Of a stretch of 9,665 nt of DNA, positions 46 through 9,453 are shown piece after piece. How positions within the stretch are numbered: the stretch's first letter is position 1; each line of letters begins with the position of its first letter. The stretch is from an uncultured Peptococcaceae bacterium (GTDB lineage: Bacteria; Bacillota; Peptococcia; Peptococcales; Peptococcaceae): the NCBI GenBank assembly GCA_945949655.1, contig CAMFFG010000027.1, positions 1 to 9,665 of the forward strand. Direction: 5' to 3'. The position numbers and the translations under genes are program-made. The notes under the pieces are model-generated. The model was not told the DNA's origin. It ran no database searches and saw only the letters and a list, made by a program, of their open reading frames with translations.

Positions 46-86
46 ATAATATAAATGCCCGTCGCAGCGATGGGCATTTATATTAT
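46..86 (-). terminator. Operon-end inverted repeat, probable intrinsic terminator
   Basis: Positions 46-60 are the exact reverse complement of 72-86, a 15-bp perfect stem whose distal part is AT-rich and proximal part is GGGCAT/ATGCCC. The 11-base centre (61-71) can pair further as TCG-CAG-CGA. It begins directly after the TAA stop (87-89) of the last operon gene. Read on the minus strand, the descending arm ends in an AT-rich stretch (ATTTATATTAT) rather than a clean U-run, so termination is likely but not textbook. Being almost symmetric, it could also terminate transcription entering from the left. Positions 1-45 to its left show nothing I can identify. Confidence 0.6.
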
Positions 87-455
87 TTAATTCGGGATGG
101 TGTATATATTGATGTGGTTTCTGGCTGGGTCGACCATGCGGAACATATGCCAGCCGTATGGACGGAAGAAAGGCTCTTGCGTCACAGCACCCAGTTCCTT
201 GGCTCGGCGGTAAACCTCCTGCAGACTTGGAACCTGCAGTTGGAAATGGATTGGGCCATATTCGGGAAAAGGGTTTTCCTGCACCAGGAGCACGATTTTC
301 GAACCGGCCAGATTATATTTGACGCCACGGTCTTCCGAGCCCTCGTCCCAGCCATAAAAGGGCTGGACGGAAAAGACCTGCTCATAAAAGCGGCGGCATA
401 TCTCGTATTGCTCCTGAGAAACATAGAGCAGAAGCTGAAAATCCAGATAGTCCAT
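87..455 (-). CDS. Single-domain VOC (glyoxalase/bleomycin-resistance fold) protein, operon copy 3
   Basis: This 122-residue protein is one complete VOC domain, two beta-alpha-beta-beta-beta modules, so it would be expected to dimerise. The start at 455 is chosen over an in-frame ATG at 503 because AAGGAGGGG lies 6 bases upstream; that site overlaps the TAA stop of the amidohydrolase gene, implying translational coupling. Visible features are a first strand FQLLLYV with Q7, the family signature W36...D42-R43-G44, and second-module strand IHFQLQV with H70. The usual metal-binding glutamates at strands 4 and 8 appear replaced (IVLLV near residue 55; HINIY near 115). Q7 and H70 could still contribute to a site. 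It shares the W...DRG motif with the two larger VOC proteins upstream. No enzymatic function can be assigned; a ligand-binding role or a subunit of a larger VOC assembly are both possible. Confidence 0.85.
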   Translation of the reverse strand: MDYLDFQLLLYVSQEQYEICRRFYEQVFSVQPFYGWDEGSEDRGVKYNLAGSKIVLLVQENPFPEYGPIHFQLQVPSLQEVYRRAKELGAVTQEPFFRPYGWHMFRMVDPARNHINIYTIPN

Positions 456-466
456 AAAGCCCCTCC

Positions 467-1873
467 TTATTGATTGCTGCAATATGGAGCAAACGCGCTG
501 CACCGATTGCGCAGCACTCGCGTACAGACCTGCTCGCCCTCCTGCAGAAGCTTTTCTTCGTCTACACCGGCAAGACGGTCATTCTGATAGACCACCCGGC
601 CATTAATCATGGTCAGCCAGACATTGCCGGTAATGCCCAACTTTGGCAGAATCGAAGCCGGATCATGCAGCGCTCCGGCATATTCCAGCCGCTGTACATC
701 CACCAGGAAAAGATCCGCTGCTTTTCCGGCGGCCAGACGCCCCAACTCCGGCCGGCCAATCATGTCTGCACCACCTGCTGTGGCCATTTTCAGCATCTCG
801 TACGGAGTGGGGCAGCTACCCCGCTGCTTGCTGAGAAATGTCTGCATCAGATAAGCCAGGCGCAAGGTGTCCAGCATATTGGAGCCATCGTTGGTGGCAC
901 AGCCGTCTACGCCCAATCCCAAAGGGATACCAGCCTTTTGCATGCCGGGAATGTCCAGAATCTCACTACCGCCCAGCATAGTGGGTGCAGGACAATGGGA
1001 AATACCCATCCCATTGCGGGCCAGCAGATCATATTCCTGAGGCAGAGTCTCTCGGCCATGAGCCAGCCAAATGTCACTCCCCAGAAAGCCAATGCGGCGG
1101 CACCACTCCAGCGAGCGCACGCCGAAGCGGCGAACCATACTGCTGTTTTCCCCTTCACACAGATGCGTATGCATGCGAAGATTGCTGCTGCGGGCTAGAC
1201 GGATGGTTTCAAGGAAGGTGTCTTCGGTGCAATTGATGGGCTGGCAAGGGGCAAGCACAATCTGCTGCATGGAAAAGGGCGCAGGATCATGGTAAAGGGC
1301 CAGCAGCCGCTCACAATCCTGAAGATATTCCGCGGTTGTTTCGCACATCTCATCCGGGATGGTGCTGCCCTGCCAACGGGGCAGCGTATTTGTACCACGG
1401 GCGGCCAGAAAACGGAAACCCATCATTTGGGCCACCTCCATCTGGCGGTCTATGGCCCGTTTTCCGGTATGTGTTGTATAGCAGTACTGATGATCCACGG
1501 AGCAGGTGCAGCCGTGCTTAATCAGGTCTGCCATACAGGCAGCGGAGGAATAGAAAATCACATTATCGTCAATGCAGATAAAAACCTTATAGATTTCATC
1601 GAGCCACTGCATCAGTGTCAGACCCGGCCGGTCAATGGTCATAAGATTGCGAACGAAAGCCTGAAAAAAGTGATGGTGGGTATTGACAAAGCCTGGGTAC
1701 ACATATTTCCCGGCAGCATCGATTACATGTGCGCCGTCGGCGCAGAGGTTGCGCCCTACAGCTTCGATTTGGTTGCCATTGATAAGGAGGTCAGCGCCGT
1801 AAAGAATGCGGTCCTGCTCGTCACAGGTCACAATGGCCCGTGCGTTGCGGATTAGCGTTTTTTCAGACATCAT
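467..1873 (-). CDS. COG0402 amidohydrolase, 8-oxoguanine deaminase-like
   Basis: This 468-residue cytoplasmic TIM-barrel amidohydrolase (subtype III, mononuclear metal) would hydrolytically remove an amino or similar group from a nitrogen heterocycle. The composite beta domain lies at about 1-60 and 380-430. Predicted ligands are all present: H66 and H68 in PGFVNTHHH, H237 in HTHLCE, H272 in LAHG and D323 in GVDG, with E240 as the acid/base. The PGFVNTHHHFFQ block, the GCTCSVDHQY block (121-130) and GVDGCATNDGSNM (321-333) resemble 8-oxoguanine deaminases and the related hydroxyatrazine/triazine hydrolases more than guanine or cytosine deaminases, so an oxidised or substituted purine or pyrimidine is the likely substrate, by inference. 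ATGATG at 1873/1870 overlaps the TGA of the upstream VOC gene, with AAGGTGGG upstream; the first ATG is taken. SsnA-type or isocytosine deaminases are alternatives. Confidence 0.9.
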   Translation of the reverse strand: MMSEKTLIRNARAIVTCDEQDRILYGADLLINGNQIEAVGRNLCADGAHVIDAAGKYVYPGFVNTHHHFFQAFVRNLMTIDRPGLTLMQWLDEIYKVFICIDDNVIFYSSAACMADLIKHGCTCSVDHQYCYTTHTGKRAIDRQMEVAQMMGFRFLAARGTNTLPRWQGSTIPDEMCETTAEYLQDCERLLALYHDPAPFSMQQIVLAPCQPINCTEDTFLETIRLARSSNLRMHTHLCEGENSSMVRRFGVRSLEWCRRIGFLGSDIWLAHGRETLPQEYDLLARNGMGISHCPAPTMLGGSEILDIPGMQKAGIPLGLGVDGCATNDGSNMLDTLRLAYLMQTFLSKQRGSCPTPYEMLKMATAGGADMIGRPELGRLAAGKAADLFLVDVQRLEYAGALHDPASILPKLGITGNVWLTMINGRVVYQNDRLAGVDEEKLLQEGEQVCTRVLRNRCSAFAPYCSNQ

Positions 1874-2673
1874 TTCCCACCTTGTCTGGCCAAATCTTGG
1901 GCTTTCATGTTGCGGCGATAGGCGAGAACTTCCACCACGTTTTTCTCTTCGTCACAGATCTGAAAGATTCGGTCTCCGTACCATGTATCCGTTAAGCCCA
2001 GAAGCACCTGAACGTCCTCCCGTTGAGAGAGCCAGTCGAAGCACGCGTTTACATCCTCTGCCTCGATGGTAGTCAACGCCGGGCCTTGGGGGGTGTTTTC
2101 CGTCATTTGGCGGATGTCAGTATAGCCGCCTGCGGAGCGCAGACGATAGCCTCGATCCTCAGGCCCACGGTCCCAGGAAGCTATCACGGGCATCTGCATA
2201 GAGTCGCGATAAAAAGCGGTAATTTTTTCCAAATCTCTGGCAAAGAGAATAGCGGTATACTCGTCAGTGAAATAACAGCTGCCGTCATCAGGGCCCGCAG
2301 GACTGTAATCCTCTGCACGCTGATAGATCTCTACCCAATTACCCACAGGATCTTTGATGCAGAAACTGTATTCACCCCAGGGATGTGCCCGCAGAGGATG
2401 GATGACTGTGACCCGGGGCTGAGATTTCAGATTTTTATAGCACAGTTCAATGTCCCGGGCTTCCAGACGCATGCCAGCCGGGCCCTGGGGGAGGGTGGGA
2501 TGACGGCAAATCAGTTCCAGCCGGTTGTCACCGATTTTAAACTTGCAGCCGCGGTCTATCGGGCTTGTGTACCAGCCGTACATCTGCGGCAGGCGCAGCA
2601 AATCCCGATAAAAGGATTGAAGCGTATCAAACTCCCAGGAGTAATAAACAATTCTGTATTCTTTGCGCCACAT
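1870..2673 (-). CDS. Two-domain VOC-fold protein, operon copy 2
   Basis: This 267-residue protein has two tandem VOC domains (about 3-120 and 135-255). Both carry the same internal signature: FYRDLL...W34...D40-R41-G42 in the first and FYRDSM...W167...D173-R174-G175 in the second, each followed by a P-Q-G-P turn. By eye, the four usual metal positions read R7, E53, a non-histidine and E115 in domain 1, and T140, D186, a non-histidine and E248 in domain 2, so neither has a normal His/Gln-Glu site. The tail EVLAYRRN matches EIYAYLRN in the neighbouring two-domain VOC protein, pointing to duplication of a two-domain ancestor. ATG at 2673 is preceded by AAAGGA; the gene starts 18 bases after its upstream neighbour and shares ATGA with the amidohydrolase. 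Cytosolic; function unknown (isomerase, lyase, or metal-independent ligand binding). Confidence 0.88.
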   Translation of the reverse strand: MWRKEYRIVYYSWEFDTLQSFYRDLLRLPQMYGWYTSPIDRGCKFKIGDNRLELICRHPTLPQGPAGMRLEARDIELCYKNLKSQPRVTVIHPLRAHPWGEYSFCIKDPVGNWVEIYQRAEDYSPAGPDDGSCYFTDEYTAILFARDLEKITAFYRDSMQMPVIASWDRGPEDRGYRLRSAGGYTDIRQMTENTPQGPALTTIEAEDVNACFDWLSQREDVQVLLGLTDTWYGDRIFQICDEEKNVVEVLAYRRNMKAQDLARQGGK

Positions 2674-2691
2674 GTTTTTTCCTTTCCGCTG

Positions 2692-3462
2692 TCAGTGCAT
2701 CAGAATTTCTTCCCGTACATTGCGCAGGTAGGCATAGATTTCAACCACATTGTTGCTGGGATCATAAAGCTGAAACAGGCGCCGTGCATCAAAATCCGTG
2801 TCACGCAGAACTCCGGCCTCCCGGTAATCTGTGCGCTTGCTCAGCCGGTCATACAGCTTGTTGACGCTGCTGGCCTCCAATCCGACCATAGACGGCCCCA
2901 TGGTGCAGCCATCCGGGCGGCGGAGCAGCAGCAGATGGGCATCGCCTGCCTGCACCAGCAGGGCATCCTGCCGGCGTTGAAGCAGCGGAAGACCCAGTTG
3001 CGCGCAGTAAAAATCCTCTGCCGCGGACAGGTCATCTTGGTAAAGCACACCGGTAAATTGACCGGAGAACATATCGGTTTTGTCTACATCGGCACCGCCG
3101 GTGCTCTCAGCGCTCTGCAGCAGGTGCACGACATTGCCGCCGCTGTCACGCAGAGTAACCTGACCCTCCGTTTGAGAGAGTATGTCAACGTCCGGCAATT
3201 CTTCCCGGATGCGCTCCATGCACAGAGACAAATCAACACACTCGGCCATAAACTCGCTGACACCCTGCTTGGGCAGAAAGGGGATCTGGGTGATTTCCAG
3301 ACGACCATTTCCTGTATAAAACCGATAGCCTTTCTGATCCGGGACGATGGCCCAGTTGTAATTTGGCTGCAGGCCAAGAACCTCCCGGTAGAAAAACACG
3401 CCGCTGTCGTAATCCTTCAGGTGCAGGATAAACCTGAATTCGTGAAATGTAATTGTATTCAT
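2692..3462 (-). CDS. Two-domain VOC-fold protein, operon copy 1
   Basis: This 256-residue protein has two VOC domains (about 5-118 and 133-246) joined by a short polar linker (S118-D130). Domain 1 has FYREVLGLQP, W37 and the degenerate version D42-Q-K-G of the DRG signature. Domain 2 has FYCAQLGLP but has lost the tryptophan and DRG, and looks the most diverged of the five domains in the operon. Metal-site equivalents read R10, E56, E70 and H113 in domain 1, and T137, L, M and E241 in domain 2. The R/T pairing at the first strands matches the other two-domain paralogue. The start at 3462 is preferred for its GAAGGGA site. An in-frame ATG at 3486 overlaps the permease stop as ATGA and would add eight residues (MNEEGNRY), so coupled initiation there is possible. 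Function unknown. Confidence 0.87.
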   Translation of the reverse strand: MNTITFHEFRFILHLKDYDSGVFFYREVLGLQPNYNWAIVPDQKGYRFYTGNGRLEITQIPFLPKQGVSEFMAECVDLSLCMERIREELPDVDILSQTEGQVTLRDSGGNVVHLLQSAESTGGADVDKTDMFSGQFTGVLYQDDLSAAEDFYCAQLGLPLLQRRQDALLVQAGDAHLLLLRRPDGCTMGPSMVGLEASSVNKLYDRLSKRTDYREAGVLRDTDFDARRLFQLYDPSNNVVEIYAYLRNVREEILMH

Positions 3463-3482
3463 GTACCTGTTCCCTTCTTCAT

Positions 3483-4433
3483 TCATTTTCCGCGCTGCTT
3501 GCAAGGCATGGACAGCGGATGGGCATAGGGAGCGCCGTTGGCCGCCGGAGCACGCATCCGCATGCCGGTAAGTTTGATGCCGATAAGAGCCGCCAGATAG
3601 GGCATCATCTGGGTCAGCTGCGTAGCTACGCCAAAGCTCTGCAGGCGCATCCGCAGTGCGGACATGACACCAAAGAGCAGTGTGGCAAAATACCCGCCTA
3701 CCGGCGACCACTGGCCAAATTGGTTGGCGGCAAAAGCCATGAACCCGGTTCCGGCGGACATGTCATTGACAAAGACATTGGCCGAACTCAGGCACATGAC
3801 AGCTCCGGCCATTCCGGCGAACACACCGCCCAATACCACGGCTTGCATACGCAGATGGTAGACATTGATCCCAAGGGTTGCTACAGCGGCAGGATTTTCA
3901 CCGACAGCACGCACTCGCAGACCCCAGGCTGTCTTTTTCAGCAGATACTGCATAATGGCCACCGCTAAAAAACCCAAATATACGCAGGCGGGGTAACCGC
4001 TAAGCATAGTGCCCAGAACAGGGATAGAGGCAATACCAGGGATAGTTAACGTCTGAAACCCGGCAATCCAGGGAGAAATGCCCGTCGTATCCCACAGGGA
4101 ACGCATCATCATATAGGCAAAGCCCGGTCCGAACAGGTTTAAACCGATGCCGATGACGATATGCTGGCCATTGCAGTAGATGGCCAGCAGGCCCAAAATA
4201 ACAGCCAGCAGAGCGCCTGCCATACAGCCGCACAGCAGTCCGACCCAGGGGCTGCCGATATAGTAGGTACCCACTGCGGCACAGAAGCCGCTGAAAAGCA
4301 TGGTTCCTTCAATACCAATGTTGATCACACCGGCACGCTCGCTGATCGTACAAGCCAGCGTACCCAAGGCGATGGGTGCGGTGAGGCGTATGGCGGAGGC
4401 AAAAAAGTTTGCAAAGGAAATCCAGAAATCCAT
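3483..4433 (-). CDS. ABC importer permease, NupQ-like (BPD_transp_2, COG1079)
   Basis: This 316-residue multi-pass inner-membrane subunit belongs to the importer family that includes B. subtilis NupQ and S. mutans NupC; it should pair with the upstream permease to form the translocation pore. Hydrophobic segments run throughout (for example 10-30, 62-85, 90-110, 150-165, 197-220, 248-260). Family blocks include ERAGVINIGIEG (32-43), the cytoplasmic coupling region GLRVRAVGENPAAV (171-184) and GTGFMAFAANQFGQWSP (228-244). The ATG at 4433 overlaps the TAA of the upstream permease as TAATG and follows AAAGGAG by 10 bases; a longer reading from 4514 would lie inside the neighbour and is rejected. 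The C-terminal tail (about 291-316) is unusually proline- and base-rich. The family assignment is firm; the transported solute is inferred. Confidence 0.93.
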   Translation of the reverse strand: MDFWISFANFFASAIRLTAPIALGTLACTISERAGVINIGIEGTMLFSGFCAAVGTYYIGSPWVGLLCGCMAGALLAVILGLLAIYCNGQHIVIGIGLNLFGPGFAYMMMRSLWDTTGISPWIAGFQTLTIPGIASIPVLGTMLSGYPACVYLGFLAVAIMQYLLKKTAWGLRVRAVGENPAAVATLGINVYHLRMQAVVLGGVFAGMAGAVMCLSSANVFVNDMSAGTGFMAFAANQFGQWSPVGGYFATLLFGVMSALRMRLQSFGVATQLTQMMPYLAALIGIKLTGMRMRAPAANGAPYAHPLSMPCKQRGK

Positions 4434-5500
4434 TATTCGGCAGCTCCTTTCGTTTTGCCCGGATGGCCTATCCGCAGTTTGAGCCACTGCAGCAGATGAT
4501 CCAGCACATTCCAAACATCAGGGGATGCCACAAGCATGACGATCAGACCCTGCAGGACAGAAATCATCTCAGTTGTAACCTGACTGGTCAGGCTCATGCT
4601 GATAGAGGCGGAGCGCAGCATACCGAACAGAAATGCCGACAGTAACACTCCGACGGGGGAATTCATGGCAAGAGTGGCAACGGTGATGCCGTCCCACCCA
4701 TAGCCTGGAGAAAAGCCCATGACAAAACGCTTATACACTGCCAGGCACTGGATGGAGCCGCCCAACGCAAAGAGGCCGCCGCTGATAAACATAGCGACCA
4801 GTGTGCGCCGGTAGATAGGCAGGCCTGCCTGCTGCATGGCTCGGGCATTTTCTCCCATGGCCCGCAGGGAAAAGCCGAAGGGAGTTTTATACAGCATCCA
4901 AGTGACCGCTGCCACGCAAATCAGCGCCACGAAAATGCCATAATTGAACTGGGTGCTGGGAAAAAAACGGGGTAGGATGCTGCCCTCGTTTACCACCATG
5001 GTTTCTGTGTTGCTGGCCCCCGGACGCTGAAAAAAAGTCTTGACAATATACTCCGTCAGCAAAGAGGCAATCGAGTTCATCATAATGGTGGCTACGGACA
5101 GGGATGCCAAGTTACGCCCGGCGAACAGCGTGGGCAAAACCGCCCAACCGGCTCCCGCCAGAAAACCCGCCAGCAGTGCCAGCAGATAGCCCCACGGAGC
5201 CGGGAGCGGCACCGTCAGGCCTACAATGACTGAAGCAAGGCCGCCCACCAGCACCTGACCTTCACCACCGATGTTGAAAACGCCGCTCTGAAACGCAACT
5301 GCCGCACCAAGACCGGTCATGATCAGAGGCAGAGTATAGGCCAATACATTCAAAAAGCTCTTGATACTGCCGAAAGAGCCGACCAGAATGCTCCAGTATA
5401 CGCCAAACGGTTCCCGTCCGGTGAAACGGATCGTCAGCCCAAACAGGACCAACGCCAGAACCAGCGAGAACAGTGACAATCTGATCCTTGTTTTTTTCAC
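4433..5500 (-). CDS. ABC importer permease, NupP-like (BPD_transp_2, COG4603)
   Basis: This 355-residue multi-pass permease is the larger partner of the heterodimeric channel, related to B. subtilis NupP. It starts at a GTG (5500) preceded by AAAGGAGGG at 6 bases, the strongest ribosome site in the operon. A first membrane segment (about 8-26) is followed by the family blocks FNIGGEGQVLVGG (75-87), ATIMMN (137-142), the EAA-like cytoplasmic coupling loop GFSLRAMGENARAMQQAGL (209-227) and GFSPGYGWDGI (262-272). The tail (about 340-355) is basic and presumably cytoplasmic. Length and motif order are normal for the family, and no frame damage is seen. It is separated from the binding-protein gene by 100 bases carrying a strong stem-loop, and overlaps the next permease by one base. 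Confidence 0.93.
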   Translation of the reverse strand: MKKTRIRLSLFSLVLALVLFGLTIRFTGREPFGVYWSILVGSFGSIKSFLNVLAYTLPLIMTGLGAAVAFQSGVFNIGGEGQVLVGGLASVIVGLTVPLPAPWGYLLALLAGFLAGAGWAVLPTLFAGRNLASLSVATIMMNSIASLLTEYIVKTFFQRPGASNTETMVVNEGSILPRFFPSTQFNYGIFVALICVAAVTWMLYKTPFGFSLRAMGENARAMQQAGLPIYRRTLVAMFISGGLFALGGSIQCLAVYKRFVMGFSPGYGWDGITVATLAMNSPVGVLLSAFLFGMLRSASISMSLTSQVTTEMISVLQGLIVMLVASPDVWNVLDHLLQWLKLRIGHPGKTKGAAE

Positions 5501-5543
5501 AGTGTCCCTCCTTTGGCAGATACCGATGGATCTGCGAATAAGG

Positions 5544-5580
5544 CATGGGGCTGAAAGCTACAGGAGTTTTCAGCCCCGTG
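5544..5580 (-). promoter_or_regulatory. Stem-loop between receptor and permease genes
   Basis: GGGGCTGAAA at 5547-5556 is the exact reverse complement of 5568-5577, a 10-bp stem with an 11-base loop, and three further outer pairs are possible (CAT 5544-5546 with GTG 5578-5580, one of them a G-U). There is no U-run after it on the minus strand, so it is probably not an efficient terminator. It resembles the intercistronic stems that protect the 3' end of a binding-protein message and lower expression of the downstream permeases. The role is inferred. Confidence 0.6.
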
Positions 5581-5600
5581 TCCGGTACGTGGGCTCCTTA

Positions 5601-6650
5601 TCAGGCAGCCTTCCACACCTTTGCTTCTTCAATCGAGCCGGGAACAACAATAGAGCCGCTCTTGATGGCTTCTACGGCCGCATTGTACTTGTCCATCACC
5701 TCAGTGGGAATCTGATATTCAGAGCCGTCAAAGTCCAGATACAAGCTGCTCTCCGCAATGCCCTTTTCGATGGAACCGGCGGTAAACTTGCCGTCGATCA
5801 CATCCTCAATGGCTTCCTTGGCGCAGGCGGGGAAGTCACGGATGGCGCTGGCAATGTTGGTCTGGGGAGCGTCGGAATTCAGATTGCCATCAAAGAAGAT
5901 GGTCAAAAAGCCCTTTTCCTTACCGGCGTTCAGAATACCCAGGCCACCGGCGCTGGCTGTGTGATAAATGAGGCTGGCACCCTGCTCGCTCATGGATGTG
6001 GCCAATTCATAGCAGCCATTGACCTCTGCCCAGCCATTGGCATAGTCCACCAGGACCTCGCAGTCAGGGTTTACATAGTGTGCACCTGCAATCATGCCGG
6101 CCGCGCCAAGATTGCACAGAGGAATGTCGTGGGCACCGATAAAGCCCAGCTTGTTGGTGTCGGAAAGGCCAGCACCCAGAACACCTGCCAGGAAACCCAA
6201 CTCCTGGTCGCGCCAAGTGTAGCTGCGGATATTGTCGCCTTCCACAGCGGCATCCAGAATGACAAACTTCTGCTCAGGATAGTTGGGGGCAACATTCTCC
6301 AGACTGGAACTCTGGCTGCCGCCCAGGCAGATGATCAGGTCGCAGTCGCCGCTGTCGGCATAGCCGGAAATCAGACCCTCATACTCGGCGTCATCCTTAG
6401 GCTCAGAATAAACCCACTGGATACCCATGGAGCTTTCTGCTTCCTCCATGCCATTATAGAGGGCATCGTTAAAGGACTTGTCACCCAGTCCGCTGGAAGC
6501 AAACACGACGGCAATTTTGGTGGTTTCAGAGTCGGCTTCGCCTCCGTTATCCTGCTTGTCGGCAGGCTGACCGCAGGCGGCCAGCGCCAGCACCATGCAG
6601 GCGGATAACATCAGGGCAAGCCACTTCTTCAAATTTGCTGTGAATTTCAT
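5601..6650 (-). CDS. BMP/Med-family solute-binding lipoprotein (purine-nucleoside receptor type)
   Basis: This 349-residue extracytoplasmic receptor (PF02608) would be lipid-anchored to the outer face of the membrane and deliver ligand to the two permeases. The signal peptide MKFTANLKKW plus a hydrophobic core ends in the lipobox L23-A-A-C26; an acidic, Gln/Asn/Gly-rich linker runs to about 44. The mature domain opens with KIAVVFASSGLGDKSFND (45-62), the ligand-contacting block of this family, followed by DLIICLGG (104-111) and YHTASAGGLGILNAGKEKG (229-247). Characterised relatives (PnrA/TmpC, BmpA, NupN) bind guanosine, inosine or other purine nucleosides, though related receptors take other ligands. 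The ATG at 6650 follows AAGGAGG closely. It sits between two stem-loops, which suggests it is expressed at a different level from the rest of the transporter. Confidence 0.93.
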   Translation of the reverse strand: MKFTANLKKWLALMLSACMVLALAACGQPADKQDNGGEADSETTKIAVVFASSGLGDKSFNDALYNGMEEAESSMGIQWVYSEPKDDAEYEGLISGYADSGDCDLIICLGGSQSSSLENVAPNYPEQKFVILDAAVEGDNIRSYTWRDQELGFLAGVLGAGLSDTNKLGFIGAHDIPLCNLGAAGMIAGAHYVNPDCEVLVDYANGWAEVNGCYELATSMSEQGASLIYHTASAGGLGILNAGKEKGFLTIFFDGNLNSDAPQTNIASAIRDFPACAKEAIEDVIDGKFTAGSIEKGIAESSLYLDFDGSEYQIPTEVMDKYNAAVEAIKSGSIVVPGSIEEAKVWKAA

Positions 6651-6678
6651 TTTGGTTCCTCCTTGAATTTAATTAAAA

Positions 6679-6698
6679 GCTGCCGGTTTGATGGCAGC
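6679..6698 (-). terminator. Terminator-like hairpin between ATPase and receptor genes
   Basis: GCTGCC at 6679-6684 pairs with GGCAGC at 6693-6698 across an 8-base loop. On the minus strand the stem is followed directly by TTTTAATTAAATT, the arrangement of a weak intrinsic terminator. It lies in the 62-base gap after the ATPase stop and 15 to 20 bases before the receptor's ribosome site. It could attenuate read-through or act as an RNA processing/stability element. The stem is only 6 bp, so termination is probably partial. Confidence 0.45.
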
Positions 6699-6712
6699 AG
6701 AATCAACTGCTT

Positions 6713-8254
6713 TCAGACATGTTCGCCCAGCATCATGCGGCCAAGAGCCTCCCGATCAGTGGCATCAGCGTCTACAAAACCCATAATTTCGCCCCGGAAG
6801 AGAACCATAATCCGGTCAGAAATTTTGATTAGTTCATCCAAATCACTGGATATGAGAAGCACAGCACAGCCCTGCGATGCGGCGTCCAGGATGCGGCGCT
6901 GAATATAGTCCGCAGAAGCGATGTCAACCCCTCGGGTGGGCTGGGCTGCAACGAGCAGGCGGCAGCCGCGGACAAGCTCACGGGCGACTACGATTTTCTG
7001 CTGGTTGCCTCCGGAAAGGGTACCCACCACCGACTCTTCGGTGGCGGCAATGCTATAGTCTGAGATCTTTTTTCGCGCATCCTGCCGGACAGCATTCCAA
7101 TCCTCCAATAACGCGCTTCGCGCAAAGGGCTTTTCGTCATAGGTATTGAGCAGCGTGTTCTCAAACAGCCGCATACCCAAAATTAGGCCCATGCCCTGCC
7201 GGTCATCGGGGATACTGCCCATACCGGCATCGCGGATCTGCTTGGTGGAATAACGGGTGATGTCCTTCTCACACAAATAAATACTTCCCCTGCTCGGCTG
7301 GCACAGCCCCATCAACGCCTGTGCCAGCGGCGTTTGGCCATTTCCCTCGATACCGGCCACGCCCAATACCTCGCCGGCCCGTATGGAAAAAGTGACGTCC
7401 TTCACCGGTGCGCCGCCATGGGCGGGCACGGACAAATTCTCTACCTGCAGAACAGTTTCACTGCCGATGGGGTGGGGCTGTCGTCTGCCAGCCGATATTG
7501 ATTTGCCGACCATCATTTGGGTCAGCTCGCCCATTTGGGTTTCTGCCGGGGTGGTGGTGCCCACGATATGCCCGTGCCGGATAACTGTCATGCGGTCCGC
7601 GATCTGATAAACCTCGCGCAGCTTGTGGGTGATAAAAACAATGGATTTGCCCAGATTACGCAACTGGCGCAGCACATCAAACAGTGCGTCTGATTCCTGA
7701 GGCGTCAGGAGAGCGGTGGGCTCGTCAAAAATGAGAATGTCTGCTTTGCGGTACAGCAGCTTCACAATTTCCACTCGCTGCCGCTGACCGATGGTCAACT
7801 TGTCCACCAGGGCCTCCGGGTCTACATCCAGTCCAAAGGACGCGGCTAATTCCTGAATCTGACGGTTGGCCTCCTGCCGCTTTAGTCGTCCACTCCATGT
7901 TTTTATTTCCTGACCCAGCATGATATTCTCAGACACAGTAAGATGCGGAATCAGCATCAGTTCCTGATGCACCATGCCAATGCCGTGGGCGATGGCGTCG
8001 GCGGGGCTTTTCAAGGTCACCGGTTTTCCGGCAAGAATGATTTGCCCTTGATCCGGCTGCTCTATGCCATAGAGCATTTTCATGAGCGTGCTTTTTCCAG
8101 CGCCATTCTCGCCCAAAAATGCATGCACTTCGCCGTGGCGCAGAGTAAAGTTGATATGATCATTGGCCTGTACAACGCCGCCATAGCATTTGCACAGGTC
8201 TATGCATTGCAGAACTGCCGATGCTTCATCACAAAACTGAGAACATTGCGTCAT
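6713..8254 (-). CDS. ABC importer ATPase, NupO-like, two fused nucleotide-binding domains
   Basis: This 513-residue ATPase drives the importer from the cytoplasmic face. NBD1 (about 12-250) is canonical: Walker A GENGAGKST (48-56), Q97 of the Q-loop, a variant signature LTIGQRQRV (153-161), Walker B ILIFDEP (173-179) and switch H210. NBD2 (about 265-510) has an intact LSGGNQQK signature (413-420) but a degenerate Walker A, GIEGNGQT (301-308, Lys replaced by Gln), and Walker B LLVAAQP (434-440). This pattern is normal for the NupO/sugar-type ATPases and means one competent ATP site. The IPDDRQGMGLI block (348-358) also fits. The start at 8254 is favoured because a G-rich ribosome site lies 9 bases upstream, family length matches, and a longer reading from 8383 would run through the promoter and operator. 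Confidence 0.93.
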   Translation of the reverse strand: MTQCSQFCDEASAVLQCIDLCKCYGGVVQANDHINFTLRHGEVHAFLGENGAGKSTLMKMLYGIEQPDQGQIILAGKPVTLKSPADAIAHGIGMVHQELMLIPHLTVSENIMLGQEIKTWSGRLKRQEANRQIQELAASFGLDVDPEALVDKLTIGQRQRVEIVKLLYRKADILIFDEPTALLTPQESDALFDVLRQLRNLGKSIVFITHKLREVYQIADRMTVIRHGHIVGTTTPAETQMGELTQMMVGKSISAGRRQPHPIGSETVLQVENLSVPAHGGAPVKDVTFSIRAGEVLGVAGIEGNGQTPLAQALMGLCQPSRGSIYLCEKDITRYSTKQIRDAGMGSIPDDRQGMGLILGMRLFENTLLNTYDEKPFARSALLEDWNAVRQDARKKISDYSIAATEESVVGTLSGGNQQKIVVARELVRGCRLLVAAQPTRGVDIASADYIQRRILDAASQGCAVLLISSDLDELIKISDRIMVLFRGEIMGFVDADATDREALGRMMLGEHV

Positions 8255-8302: not shown

Positions 8303-8331
8303 ATTATACAGCGGCTTTCCCAAAATATGAA
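8303..8331 (-). promoter_or_regulatory. Predicted sigma-A promoter of the transporter operon
   Basis: On the minus strand a perfect -10 TATAAT (8308-8303) lies 17 bases after a -35-like TTCATA (8331-8326, four of six consensus positions). The predicted start is near 8296, giving a leader of about 42 bases to the ATG at 8254. The weak -35 fits a promoter that needs an activator, and the dyad at 8345-8373 is correctly placed for one. Confidence 0.65.
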
Positions 8332-8553: not shown

Positions 8554-9453
8554 ATGACATTAAAGCAGATTCTTTATATCCGAACCGTCAGCGAGGCGGG
8601 ATCTATCGGTAAGGCGGCGAAAATGCTGTTTATCTCCCAGTCCAGCCTGTCAGAATCCATCCGAAACCTTGAGGACGAATATGACATGGAGCTTTTTGAG
8701 CGCAACAGCAAGGGGATCTCCCTGACACATCAGGGAGAGGAGTTTTTGAAGGATACGCAATTACTGGCAAGCCTATATCAGGATCTGGATAACAAATATA
8801 AGCACCGGCGTGGGGAGCGAGAGTATTTTTGCGTCGCTTCTTTGCACCATGTTTCAGGCATAGATGCATTTGAGAGCATCGTGCATCTGCCTGAAAATCA
8901 AAAGTACCGGCTGGGGTATCTCGAGGGGAACATGGATCAGGTGCTGGAAAATGTGGAAACCAGCCAGGCTGATGTTGGCGTGCTGTTTTTTGCCAGCGAC
9001 AGCCGCAGCGCCATCATCAAGGCCTGCAATCGGCGCAATATTTTTTTCCAGCATCTGAAATACGATCAATTGCACATATATGTGCACAAGCTGCACCCGT
9101 TGGCCAAACAGAAAAGCGTGACGCTGCGGGATATTCAGGCCTATCCCTTTATTTCTTACGAAGAGTGCAACCCATCATCCCCCCGCTTTACCACCACGCA
9201 CCGTCAGTGGGATCCGCGGCAGCAGATCATTTCCGTGTCAGACCGGGCCATGGCTTATTCACTGCTCGCCCAGAGCAGGGCGTATGTGACCGGCTCCGGA
9301 TATCTGACCCGAGAGGATCAGCGCCGGGAGCTGGTGTGCATTCCTATTACAGATCTGGGGCAGATCGAGATCGGTTATATCAGCAATCCCTCTCGCGTGC
9401 TGCCGGAGATCGCCATGGAGTTCATCGAGCGGCTAAAGGCCATCACGGTATGA
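8554..9453 (+). CDS. LysR-type transcriptional regulator
   Basis: This 299-residue DNA-binding regulator has a standard N-terminal winged helix-turn-helix (residues 1-60) with GSIGKAAKMLFISQSSLSES at 16-35 and the wing FERNSKGISLTHQGEEFL, a linker helix to about 88, and a periplasmic-binding-protein-like effector domain to the C-terminus. Length is typical. The ATG at 8554 follows GAGGGA by 6 bases. It is transcribed away from the importer operon, the usual arrangement for a LysR protein that controls its neighbour and itself, and the intergenic region holds a T-N11-A dyad at the expected distance. The co-inducer cannot be read from sequence; a compound imported or produced by the operon is the natural inference. 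Confidence 0.93.
   Translation: MTLKQILYIRTVSEAGSIGKAAKMLFISQSSLSESIRNLEDEYDMELFERNSKGISLTHQGEEFLKDTQLLASLYQDLDNKYKHRRGEREYFCVASLHHVSGIDAFESIVHLPENQKYRLGYLEGNMDQVLENVETSQADVGVLFFASDSRSAIIKACNRRNIFFQHLKYDQLHIYVHKLHPLAKQKSVTLRDIQAYPFISYEECNPSSPRFTTTHRQWDPRQQIISVSDRAMAYSLLAQSRAYVTGSGYLTREDQRRELVCIPITDLGQIEIGYISNPSRVLPEIAMEFIERLKAITV

Follow-up and report, generated by a model that had tools for sequence, protein, structure and literature searches.

An operon combining a guanine-deaminase-type amidohydrolase with three VOC proteins and a BMP-type importer in an uncultured Peptococcaceae bacterium

Guanine deaminases are described as forming two clusters, one with AtzB and one with E. coli GuaD (PMC13054789). 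The same paper, of 2026, reported the N2,N2-dimethylguanine hydrolases (NdmH) and announced a study of their genomic context as its follow-up. The window analysed here is a stretch of 9,665 nucleotides (contig CAMFFG010000027.1 of assembly GCA_945949655.1, an uncultured Peptococcaceae bacterium designated G000) and encodes a relative of these enzymes within an operon of eight genes, together with an ATP-binding cassette (ABC) importer with a BMP-type receptor and three glyoxalase-fold (VOC) proteins, VOC1, VOC2 and VOC3 (Table 1). The parts belong to known families and stand in a real, conserved operon that several uncultured Clostridia share; what is unusual is an altered deaminase pocket with dedicated VOC partners. 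The favoured reading, which is given about an even chance, is that the operon imports a guanine-like heterocycle, that the amidohydrolase hydrolyses its 2-amino or N2-substituted position, and that this ligand or its xanthine-like product is bound, and probably also converted, by the three VOC proteins with no metal involved.

The closest described enzymes are NdmH and AtzB, with which the window enzyme shares the CQNN signature, the catalytic Gln, Glu, His and Asp residues and the counterparts of W93, Y98, Y133 and P300 (PMC13054789). It differs from them in carrying Arg82 in place of W85, and in Arg274, Thr298, Ser303, Glu304 and Cys325, which replace residues kept in 159–167 of 167 related rows; no VOC gene is mentioned in the accessible portion of that paper. 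The canonical guanine deaminase model TIGR02967 scores 100.1 bits with the window enzyme and its cut-off of 375.4 is missed. The initial annotation called the enzyme 8-oxoguanine-deaminase-like, which is corrected here. The best NCBIfam model is that of 8-oxoguanine deaminase (NF006055/PRK08203), but its cut-off of 532 bits is missed at 380.2 bits, and both of its top PDB matches, 7ww2, which bears the name 8-oxoguanine deaminase, and 3hpa, a further such enzyme, read C-S-P-F-S where the window enzyme reads C210-Q-P-I-N214 and carries the NdmH/AtzB cluster signature. The third PDB match, 2paj (217 bits), is presumably an isoxanthopterin deaminase.

For the receptor, a described counterpart is AtzT of the same Pfam family, which was crystallised with guanine (PMC6834077). 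The receptor of a second type of locus discussed below, in genome G093, reaches 161 bits with AtzT and 181 with 3s99, whereas the window receptor scores only 51.3 bits to AtzT (6pi5) and lacks the ND-GW and GDSYDQ-type motifs. The VOC proteins had been annotated as not part of any known purine route, a statement that needs amending in light of two precedents. One is orf11, a VOC gene of putative function that belongs to a bacterial gene cluster for caffeine degradation (PMC10380055); the other is toxoflavin lyase, whose substrate is a 7-azapteridine and which is itself a VOC enzyme (PMC3143149, PMC5749703). The caffeine cluster also contains a GntR gene, orf8, as do the loci of the second type, but it has its own N-demethylases and purine permease, and the likeness of its VOC gene is one of gene context. 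Toxoflavin lyase (TflA/TxDE) binds metal through H60, E113 and E138 and is active aerobically, whereas the VOC2-like proteins have no invariant His; the two-domain glyoxalase I of Zea mays (15–17% identity) and GLOD4 (12% identity) are set apart from them on the same ground. No description of such an operon was found among the papers listed in the literature searches, which covered mostly papers accessible without subscription.

Conservation of the operon and of the VOC pairing

All eight genes are found in the same order by tblastn in three other genomes, G021, G779 (permease B included) and G022, with nucleotide identities to the window of 99.4% over 9.6 kb, 77% and about 72% over most of the operon, respectively. 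Two further copies are truncated by contig ends: in G122 the visible part runs from the importer through VOC1 into the beginning of VOC2, and in G023 VOC2, the deaminase and VOC3 are visible. VOC1 is 65–78% identical in G122, G022 and G779, as is VOC3 in G022, G023 and G779, with diverged VOC3 copies in G093 and G535; divergent LysR orthologues in G022 and G779 are 66 and 80% identical. Since G000 and G021 hold near-copies and the deaminases of G022 and G023 are almost identical, the operon is counted in four lineages. Pairwise ratios of nonsynonymous to synonymous substitution rates (dN/dS) for six genes against G779 and G022 are 0.04–0.15 in 11 of 12 comparisons, and the operon is therefore no chance assembly; the VOC2 pair with G779 gave no ratio, its dS being saturated. 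The lowest dN among the four enzyme-side genes is that of VOC2 (0.085 and 0.105), with the deaminase at 0.109 and 0.190. A comparison of gene neighbourhoods had been proposed in the initial annotation as the test of the association between VOC and amidohydrolase genes, and it found the pairing conserved in related genomes.

When the VOC profile (alignment A2) was run against 400 genomes of the G021 family, 10 matches passed an E-value of 1e-8. Six of these are strong (E ≤ 2e-22), and all six adjoin the importer, the deaminase or both. Importer and deaminase both lie beside the VOC genes in G021, G779, G093 and G535, and a contig end hides the other side in the remaining two of the six, G122 (importer side visible) and G023 (deaminase side visible). 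The other four matches are weak generic VOC proteins and were set aside. G022 gave the sole strong match both in the 103 genomes of its family, where one of two matches was set aside as generic, and in a 391-genome sample of its class (17 of 18 set aside); one further VOC search had one of five matches set aside in the same way. Across 21 genomes of the order of G000, G000 is the sole match and the VOC genes are absent from the other 20. Within the genomes searched, the VOC proteins appear rare and dedicated to this setting.

A second arrangement (type 2) is present in G093 and G535. The guanine deaminases of these loci are TIGR02967-like (286 and 295 bits, missing the cut-off of 375) and non-orthologous to the window enzyme, and the loci further contain a VOC3-like gene, a VOC2-like gene, an ABC importer with a BMP receptor and an Amidohydro_2-type gene (by Pfam in G093). 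A regulator gene lies on the other strand, belonging to GntR in G093 by Pfam and appearing similar by eye in G535. The enzymes of the window-type (type-1) and type-2 loci look like one of each guanine deaminase cluster. Because related VOC proteins adjoin a second, non-orthologous guanine-deaminase-type enzyme, the VOC ligand would be of guanine type and not tied to one enzyme, which is the strongest hint to its nature. Downstream of the type-2 BMP receptor in G535 (L159:15532-19650), there are an Amidohydro_2-like gene and genes resembling by eye those for KDPG aldolase, KDG kinase and an aminotransferase, a sugar-acid context. The same genome holds an isolated VOC3-like remnant (L160:9521-9844) that is nearly identical to the VOC3 of G779 and far from the type-2 locus, with no operon neighbour recognised.

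With the deaminase as the starting point, VOC genes are found in three (L018, L019 and L020) of 80 related loci (L018–L097, the best 80 of at least 573; L018 is a near-copy of the window). A BMP receptor gene is on the fetched stretch in 46 of the 80, among Clostridia, Spirochaetes, Cloacimonadota and others, and the wider NdmH-like family is predicted to be a widespread module for import and hydrolysis of guanine analogues. A MerR-type regulator is encoded in 32 of the 80 loci. Xanthine dehydrogenase was rejected as a standard partner of the deaminase, its molybdenum subunit being found in only three of the 80.

Residues of the deaminase and the VOC proteins

The residues marked in poNdmH (PMC13054789) are found in the window enzyme at a constant offset of 3 from the published numbering. 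The CQNN residues C213, Q214, N217 and N165 correspond to C210, Q211, N214 and N162, and the catalytic Q74, E243, H275 and D326 to Q71, E240, H272 and D323, each conserved in at least 74 of the 75 rows aligned (the window and 74 full-length deaminases from the 80 loci, the remainder having been lost in open reading frame calling). With the counterparts of W93, Y98, Y133 and P300, which are also present, the range is 73–75 of 75. At the same offset, Arg82 stands at the position of W85, a residue that flanks the substrate in poNdmH and whose exchange in W85A costs 125-fold (PMC13054789). The window enzyme is not filed as an NdmH because of this arginine. By analogy with the residues characterised in NdmH enzymes, it would act on a guanine analogue.

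The window enzyme belongs to a clade of 22 rows with an approximate likelihood ratio (SH-aLRT) support of 99 by a quick tree method. Within this clade Arg82 is found in 19 of 22 rows (Tyr in 153 of the 167 other rows), Arg274 in all 22 (Trp in 167/167), Thr298 in 21 (Ala in 167/167), Ser or Thr303 in all 22 (Phe in 159/167), Glu304 in 21 (Pro in 159/167) and Cys325 in all 22 (Ser in 164/167). There are 158 positions conserved at 95% or more in the 167 other rows, and the seven of them changed in the clade (72, 239, 274, 298, 303, 304 and 325) all fall within the active-site set, to which 60 of the 158 belong (hypergeometric P of 9e-4, relatedness ignored); at a threshold of 90%, 10 of 13 changed positions do so (P of 1e-3, likewise with relatedness ignored). 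This set was chosen by the authors, as were the thresholds, and comprises residues within three positions of a signature or catalytic residue together with the loop 294–304, so that it reflects distance in sequence rather than in space. In poNdmH, the loop region 297–307 is close to the leaving group (PMC13054789). The clade changes suggest a shift of the substrate to something more polar or charged, and because the active-site neighbourhood gains two Arg and one Glu and VOC2 keeps seven invariant Arg, the ligand would be more polar or anionic than N2,N2-dimethylguanine.

When loci are grouped by Arg274, VOC genes are found in four of five clade loci with context (L018, L019, L020/G023 and G779) and in none of 76 other loci. 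The P of 3e-6 for this comparison is descriptive, with relatedness ignored, residue 274 read in 70 of the 76 and G779 found via the VOC search. In locus L036 (9998-12759), the Arg274-clade deaminase overlaps a second amidohydrolase gene by 4 bases, and the best model for the latter is 5'-deoxyadenosine deaminase (256 bits, below the cut-off of 522).

The operon encodes five VOC domains, two each in VOC1 and VOC2 and one in VOC3. VOC1 is 29% identical to VOC2, for which the structural model has a predicted local distance difference test score (pLDDT) of 89. The metal-ligand positions of VOC2 are occupied by R7, E53, M68 and E115 and by T140, D186, T201 and E248, by register. The glyoxalase I quartet H/Q-E-H-E is incomplete in VOC1, VOC2 and VOC3 and no VOC domain has it in full, the quartets having been read by eye from the sequence register with E. 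coli GlxI as a reference whose second ligand falls in an alignment gap. A metal-dependent glyoxalase or dioxygenase was rejected on this incomplete quartet. Across 16 VOC2-like proteins there is no invariant or nearly invariant His, whereas many charged residues are invariant. The VOC proteins are predicted to act metal-free on the ligand of the deaminase.

A phage origin of the VOC genes was rejected, as the VOC2 pattern is absent from viral contigs and the VOC proteins have no PHROG match. A plasmid origin was also rejected, as plasmids gave one weak match each for VOC2 and VOC3 (30% identity) and carried no copy of the operon. PADLOC-DB has no match for the deaminase or for any of the three VOC proteins, and the role in defence raised by the initial annotation is not upheld there.

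Operon layout, regulation and genomic setting

The eight genes lie on the minus strand with spacings of 62, 100, −1, 20, 18, −4 and 11 bases from the ATPase gene to VOC3, which agrees with the coordinates and the range of −4 to 100 bases of the initial annotation, and its view of one apparent transcription unit is supported. The amidohydrolase and VOC2 genes share an ATGA overlap, and the families of all eight genes pass the Pfam gathering scores.

Table 1. Features of the window with their supporting evidence
Feature	Position	Strand	Evidence
ABC importer ATPase, two ATPase domains, first operon gene	6713..8254	-	Pfam ABC_tran 180.5 bits
BMP/PnrA-type substrate-binding lipoprotein	5601..6650	-	Pfam Bmp (PF02608) 167.8 bits vs gathering 24.1
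Permease A	4433..5500	-	Pfam BPD_transp_2 121.1 bits
Permease B, start shares one base with permease A stop	3483..4433	-	BPD_transp_2 138 bits
VOC1, two-domain VOC protein	2692..3462	-	Pfam Glyoxalase 42.9 bits
VOC2, two-domain VOC protein	1870..2673	-	Pfam Glyoxalase_2 61.4 bits
Guanine-deaminase-type amidohydrolase, AtzB/NdmH cluster signature, Arg82/Arg274/Glu304 clade	467..1873	-	Amidohydro_1 175.5 bits
VOC3, single-domain VOC protein, last operon gene	87..455	-	Pfam Glyoxalase_6 30.2 bits
Hairpin, 15 pairs, directly 3' of VOC3	46..86	-	Folding vs shuffles
Promoter-like site, 10/12 consensus, upstream of ATPase gene	8303..8331	-	Best match in window
Divergent LysR-type regulator	8554..9453	+	Pfam HTH_1 + LysR_substrate

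The hairpin following VOC3 has a folding energy of −22.1 kcal/mol for a 71-nt stretch (z of −5.0, equalled by 0 of 200 shuffles) and no T-run tail, and is likely to mark the transcript end. Promoter-like matches in the window show no excess over chance, with 11 found and 8.1 expected (standard deviation 3.4). The LysR protein is probably the regulator of the operon and the sensor of its ligand. In G122 a LysR-type gene upstream of the operon (L133:1-591) is only 34% identical to that of the window and reads in the direction of the operon, and this operon has a different regulator. Another ABC transporter ATPase gene follows VOC3 on the same strand in G022 (L136:1-444) and G023 (L139:2828-3580). 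Upstream of LysR in G022, on the operon strand (L136:11577-19605), there is a cluster with the three subunits of a molybdenum hydroxylase and a UbiD-type decarboxylase, which also includes D-glutamate-cyclase-like, arylmalonate-decarboxylase-like, PAC_bac and ANTAR genes.

The G000 bin, in 285 contigs, is 68% complete, and the sample of its family comprises 13 genomes. The 99.4% copy in G021, from another family (at least 400 genomes), lies on a 70-kb contig, and the window contig may have been mis-binned into G000 or recently transferred, both of which fit. Composition was rejected as a guide to the host, as the correlation of mean tetranucleotide profiles, 0.911 with G000 and 0.908 with G021, gives no separation; the GC content is 53% for the window, 45–49% for sampled stretches of G000 and 55–60% for those of G021. 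A direct repeat of 368 bases (96.5%) brackets the operon region in G021 (L134:12194-12561 and L135:4082-4449). Its second copy overlaps an SprT-like reading frame, and a serine recombinase is encoded between the operon and the repeat. The operon segment of G021 may be mobile.

Importer, ligand and alternative explanations

The best NCBIfam model for the ATPase is NF047930 (480 bits, missing the cut-off of 670). The BMP receptor matches PDB entries 7x0r (125.5 bits), 4pev (112), 9q1u (91.5) and PnrA 2fqw (82.7) ahead of AtzT, and guanosine was fitted in the pocket of 7x0r (PMC9601137). Among 41 aligned relatives of the receptor, the ND-GW motif is present in 36 and the G(D/N)S(Y/W)DQ motif in 34, and both are absent from the window and L019. 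The one tested among these motif-bearing receptors, from L025, matches 3s99 at 149 bits and both 7x0r and AtzT at 141, so that "AtzT-like" is a loose label. Because the window receptor, best matched by 7x0r, differs from its motif-bearing relatives, the deaminase family is paired with two kinds of BMP importer. The BMP pocket was rejected as a guide to the ligand, as receptor types differ between loci, so that either a base or a nucleoside may be taken up.

Under the favoured reading, the BMP receptor and ABC permease would import a guanine-like ligand and the amidohydrolase would swap its 2-amino or N2-substituted group for oxygen. VOC2 and VOC1 would carry out a non-oxidative, metal-free and likely catalytic step on the ligand or the xanthine-like product, in which VOC3 would take part too, and LysR would probably sense the ligand. 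The initial annotation had suggested that the operon takes up and converts a modified purine or another N-heterocycle, and such a pathway is supported as likely. A much narrower form is quite unlikely: the operon would be dedicated to the catabolism of anionic adducts or analogues of guanine (for example N2-carboxyethyl- or N2-carboxymethylguanine, or a deazaguanine or pterin that is carboxylated). The Arg82/Arg274/Glu304 hydrolase would then split off the N2 substituent in the form of an amino acid, with xanthine left over, and the VOC proteins would be a new class of metal-free, arginine-lined enzymes of the glyoxalase fold that work on glycated or carboxylated bases. N2-carboxyethyl- and N2-carboxymethylguanine are glycation products of guanine.

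Several observations weigh against the favoured reading. The residue pattern is imperfect: clade rows P0041 and P0042 have Tyr82, P0054 outside the clade has Arg82 with Trp274, and the enrichment near the active site is weak when the inner 15 rows are taken alone (P of 0.03–0.04). The VOC association has exceptions as well, with no VOC gene on the 21 kb of L036, a clade locus with Arg82 and Arg274, and with a VOC2-like gene that is complete in G093 and reduced to its C-terminal half in G535. The type-1 copies of VOC3 keep a His at one ligand position, and VOC proteins without a metal may do no more than bind their ligand. The window receptor, without the motifs of most relatives, is nearer to nucleoside receptors. 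At gathering thresholds, a search of the window and 13 loci gave no purine riboswitch, the only matches being a tRNA and a lysine riboswitch. Only G022 has a molybdenum hydroxylase near the operon; on the fetched stretches of G021, G779, G122 and G023 tblastn found none, which leaves no onward route for xanthine in view. By Pfam, the window also has no recognisable nucleosidase or phosphorylase. From this last absence the initial annotation had proposed a free base or a non-nucleoside as ligand, but the guanosine fitted in 7x0r makes a nucleoside possible too (PMC9601137).

Ordinary salvage of guanine, guanosine or 8-oxoguanine for nitrogen, with the VOC proteins as generic detoxification passengers, is the foremost rival and a possible if rather doubtful one. 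BMP importers carry purines, the nearest NCBIfam model of the enzyme is 8-oxoguanine deaminase at 380 bits and the best PDB match of the receptor has guanosine fitted, all of which suit salvage; it accords poorly with changes at otherwise near-invariant positions beside the active site, with the weak activity on guanine of the AtzB-cluster enzymes tested (PMC13054789), and with a VOC2 that diverges less than the deaminase and has strong relatives only in such loci among the genomes searched. The passengers could instead be protectors. As in bleomycin and tiancimycin resistance, metal-free VOC proteins could sequester a toxic N-heterocycle during its uptake and hydrolysis, and the incomplete metal quartets would suit such a role. 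This is improbable, however, as a dedicated importer argues for a nutrient, three dissimilar VOC proteins exceed the need and the many charged invariant residues fit catalysis too.

More doubtful still is that the compound is not purine-like at all and that the deaminase has left guanine chemistry for a pterin, a triazine-like compound or another N-heterocycle. The AtzB-cluster enzymes are promiscuous and accept xenobiotics among their substrates (PMC13054789), which would agree with such a shift. The presence of 2paj among the PDB matches points the same way. The window enzyme nevertheless keeps CQNN and all catalytic residues, and guanine deaminases of the TIGR02967-like kind are accompanied by related VOC proteins, which speaks for a guanine-like ligand.

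The finding describes a side clade of deaminases in which fixed residues near the active site have become charged and which occurs with three dedicated VOC proteins in four lineages. The deaminase cluster P0040, 83% identical to the window enzyme, counts 3,407 sequences, and 2,245 belong to P0002, the cluster of VOC2. Clusters P0025, P0026 and P0072 may share one contig, as the longest contig of each has the same length of 34,316 bases. The finding points to an unrecognised ligand in anaerobic communities, and the operon offers a practical way into the study of metal-free VOC proteins. Should the ligand prove to be a damaged or modified guanine, the operon would reveal a route by which anaerobes recycle bases of this kind.

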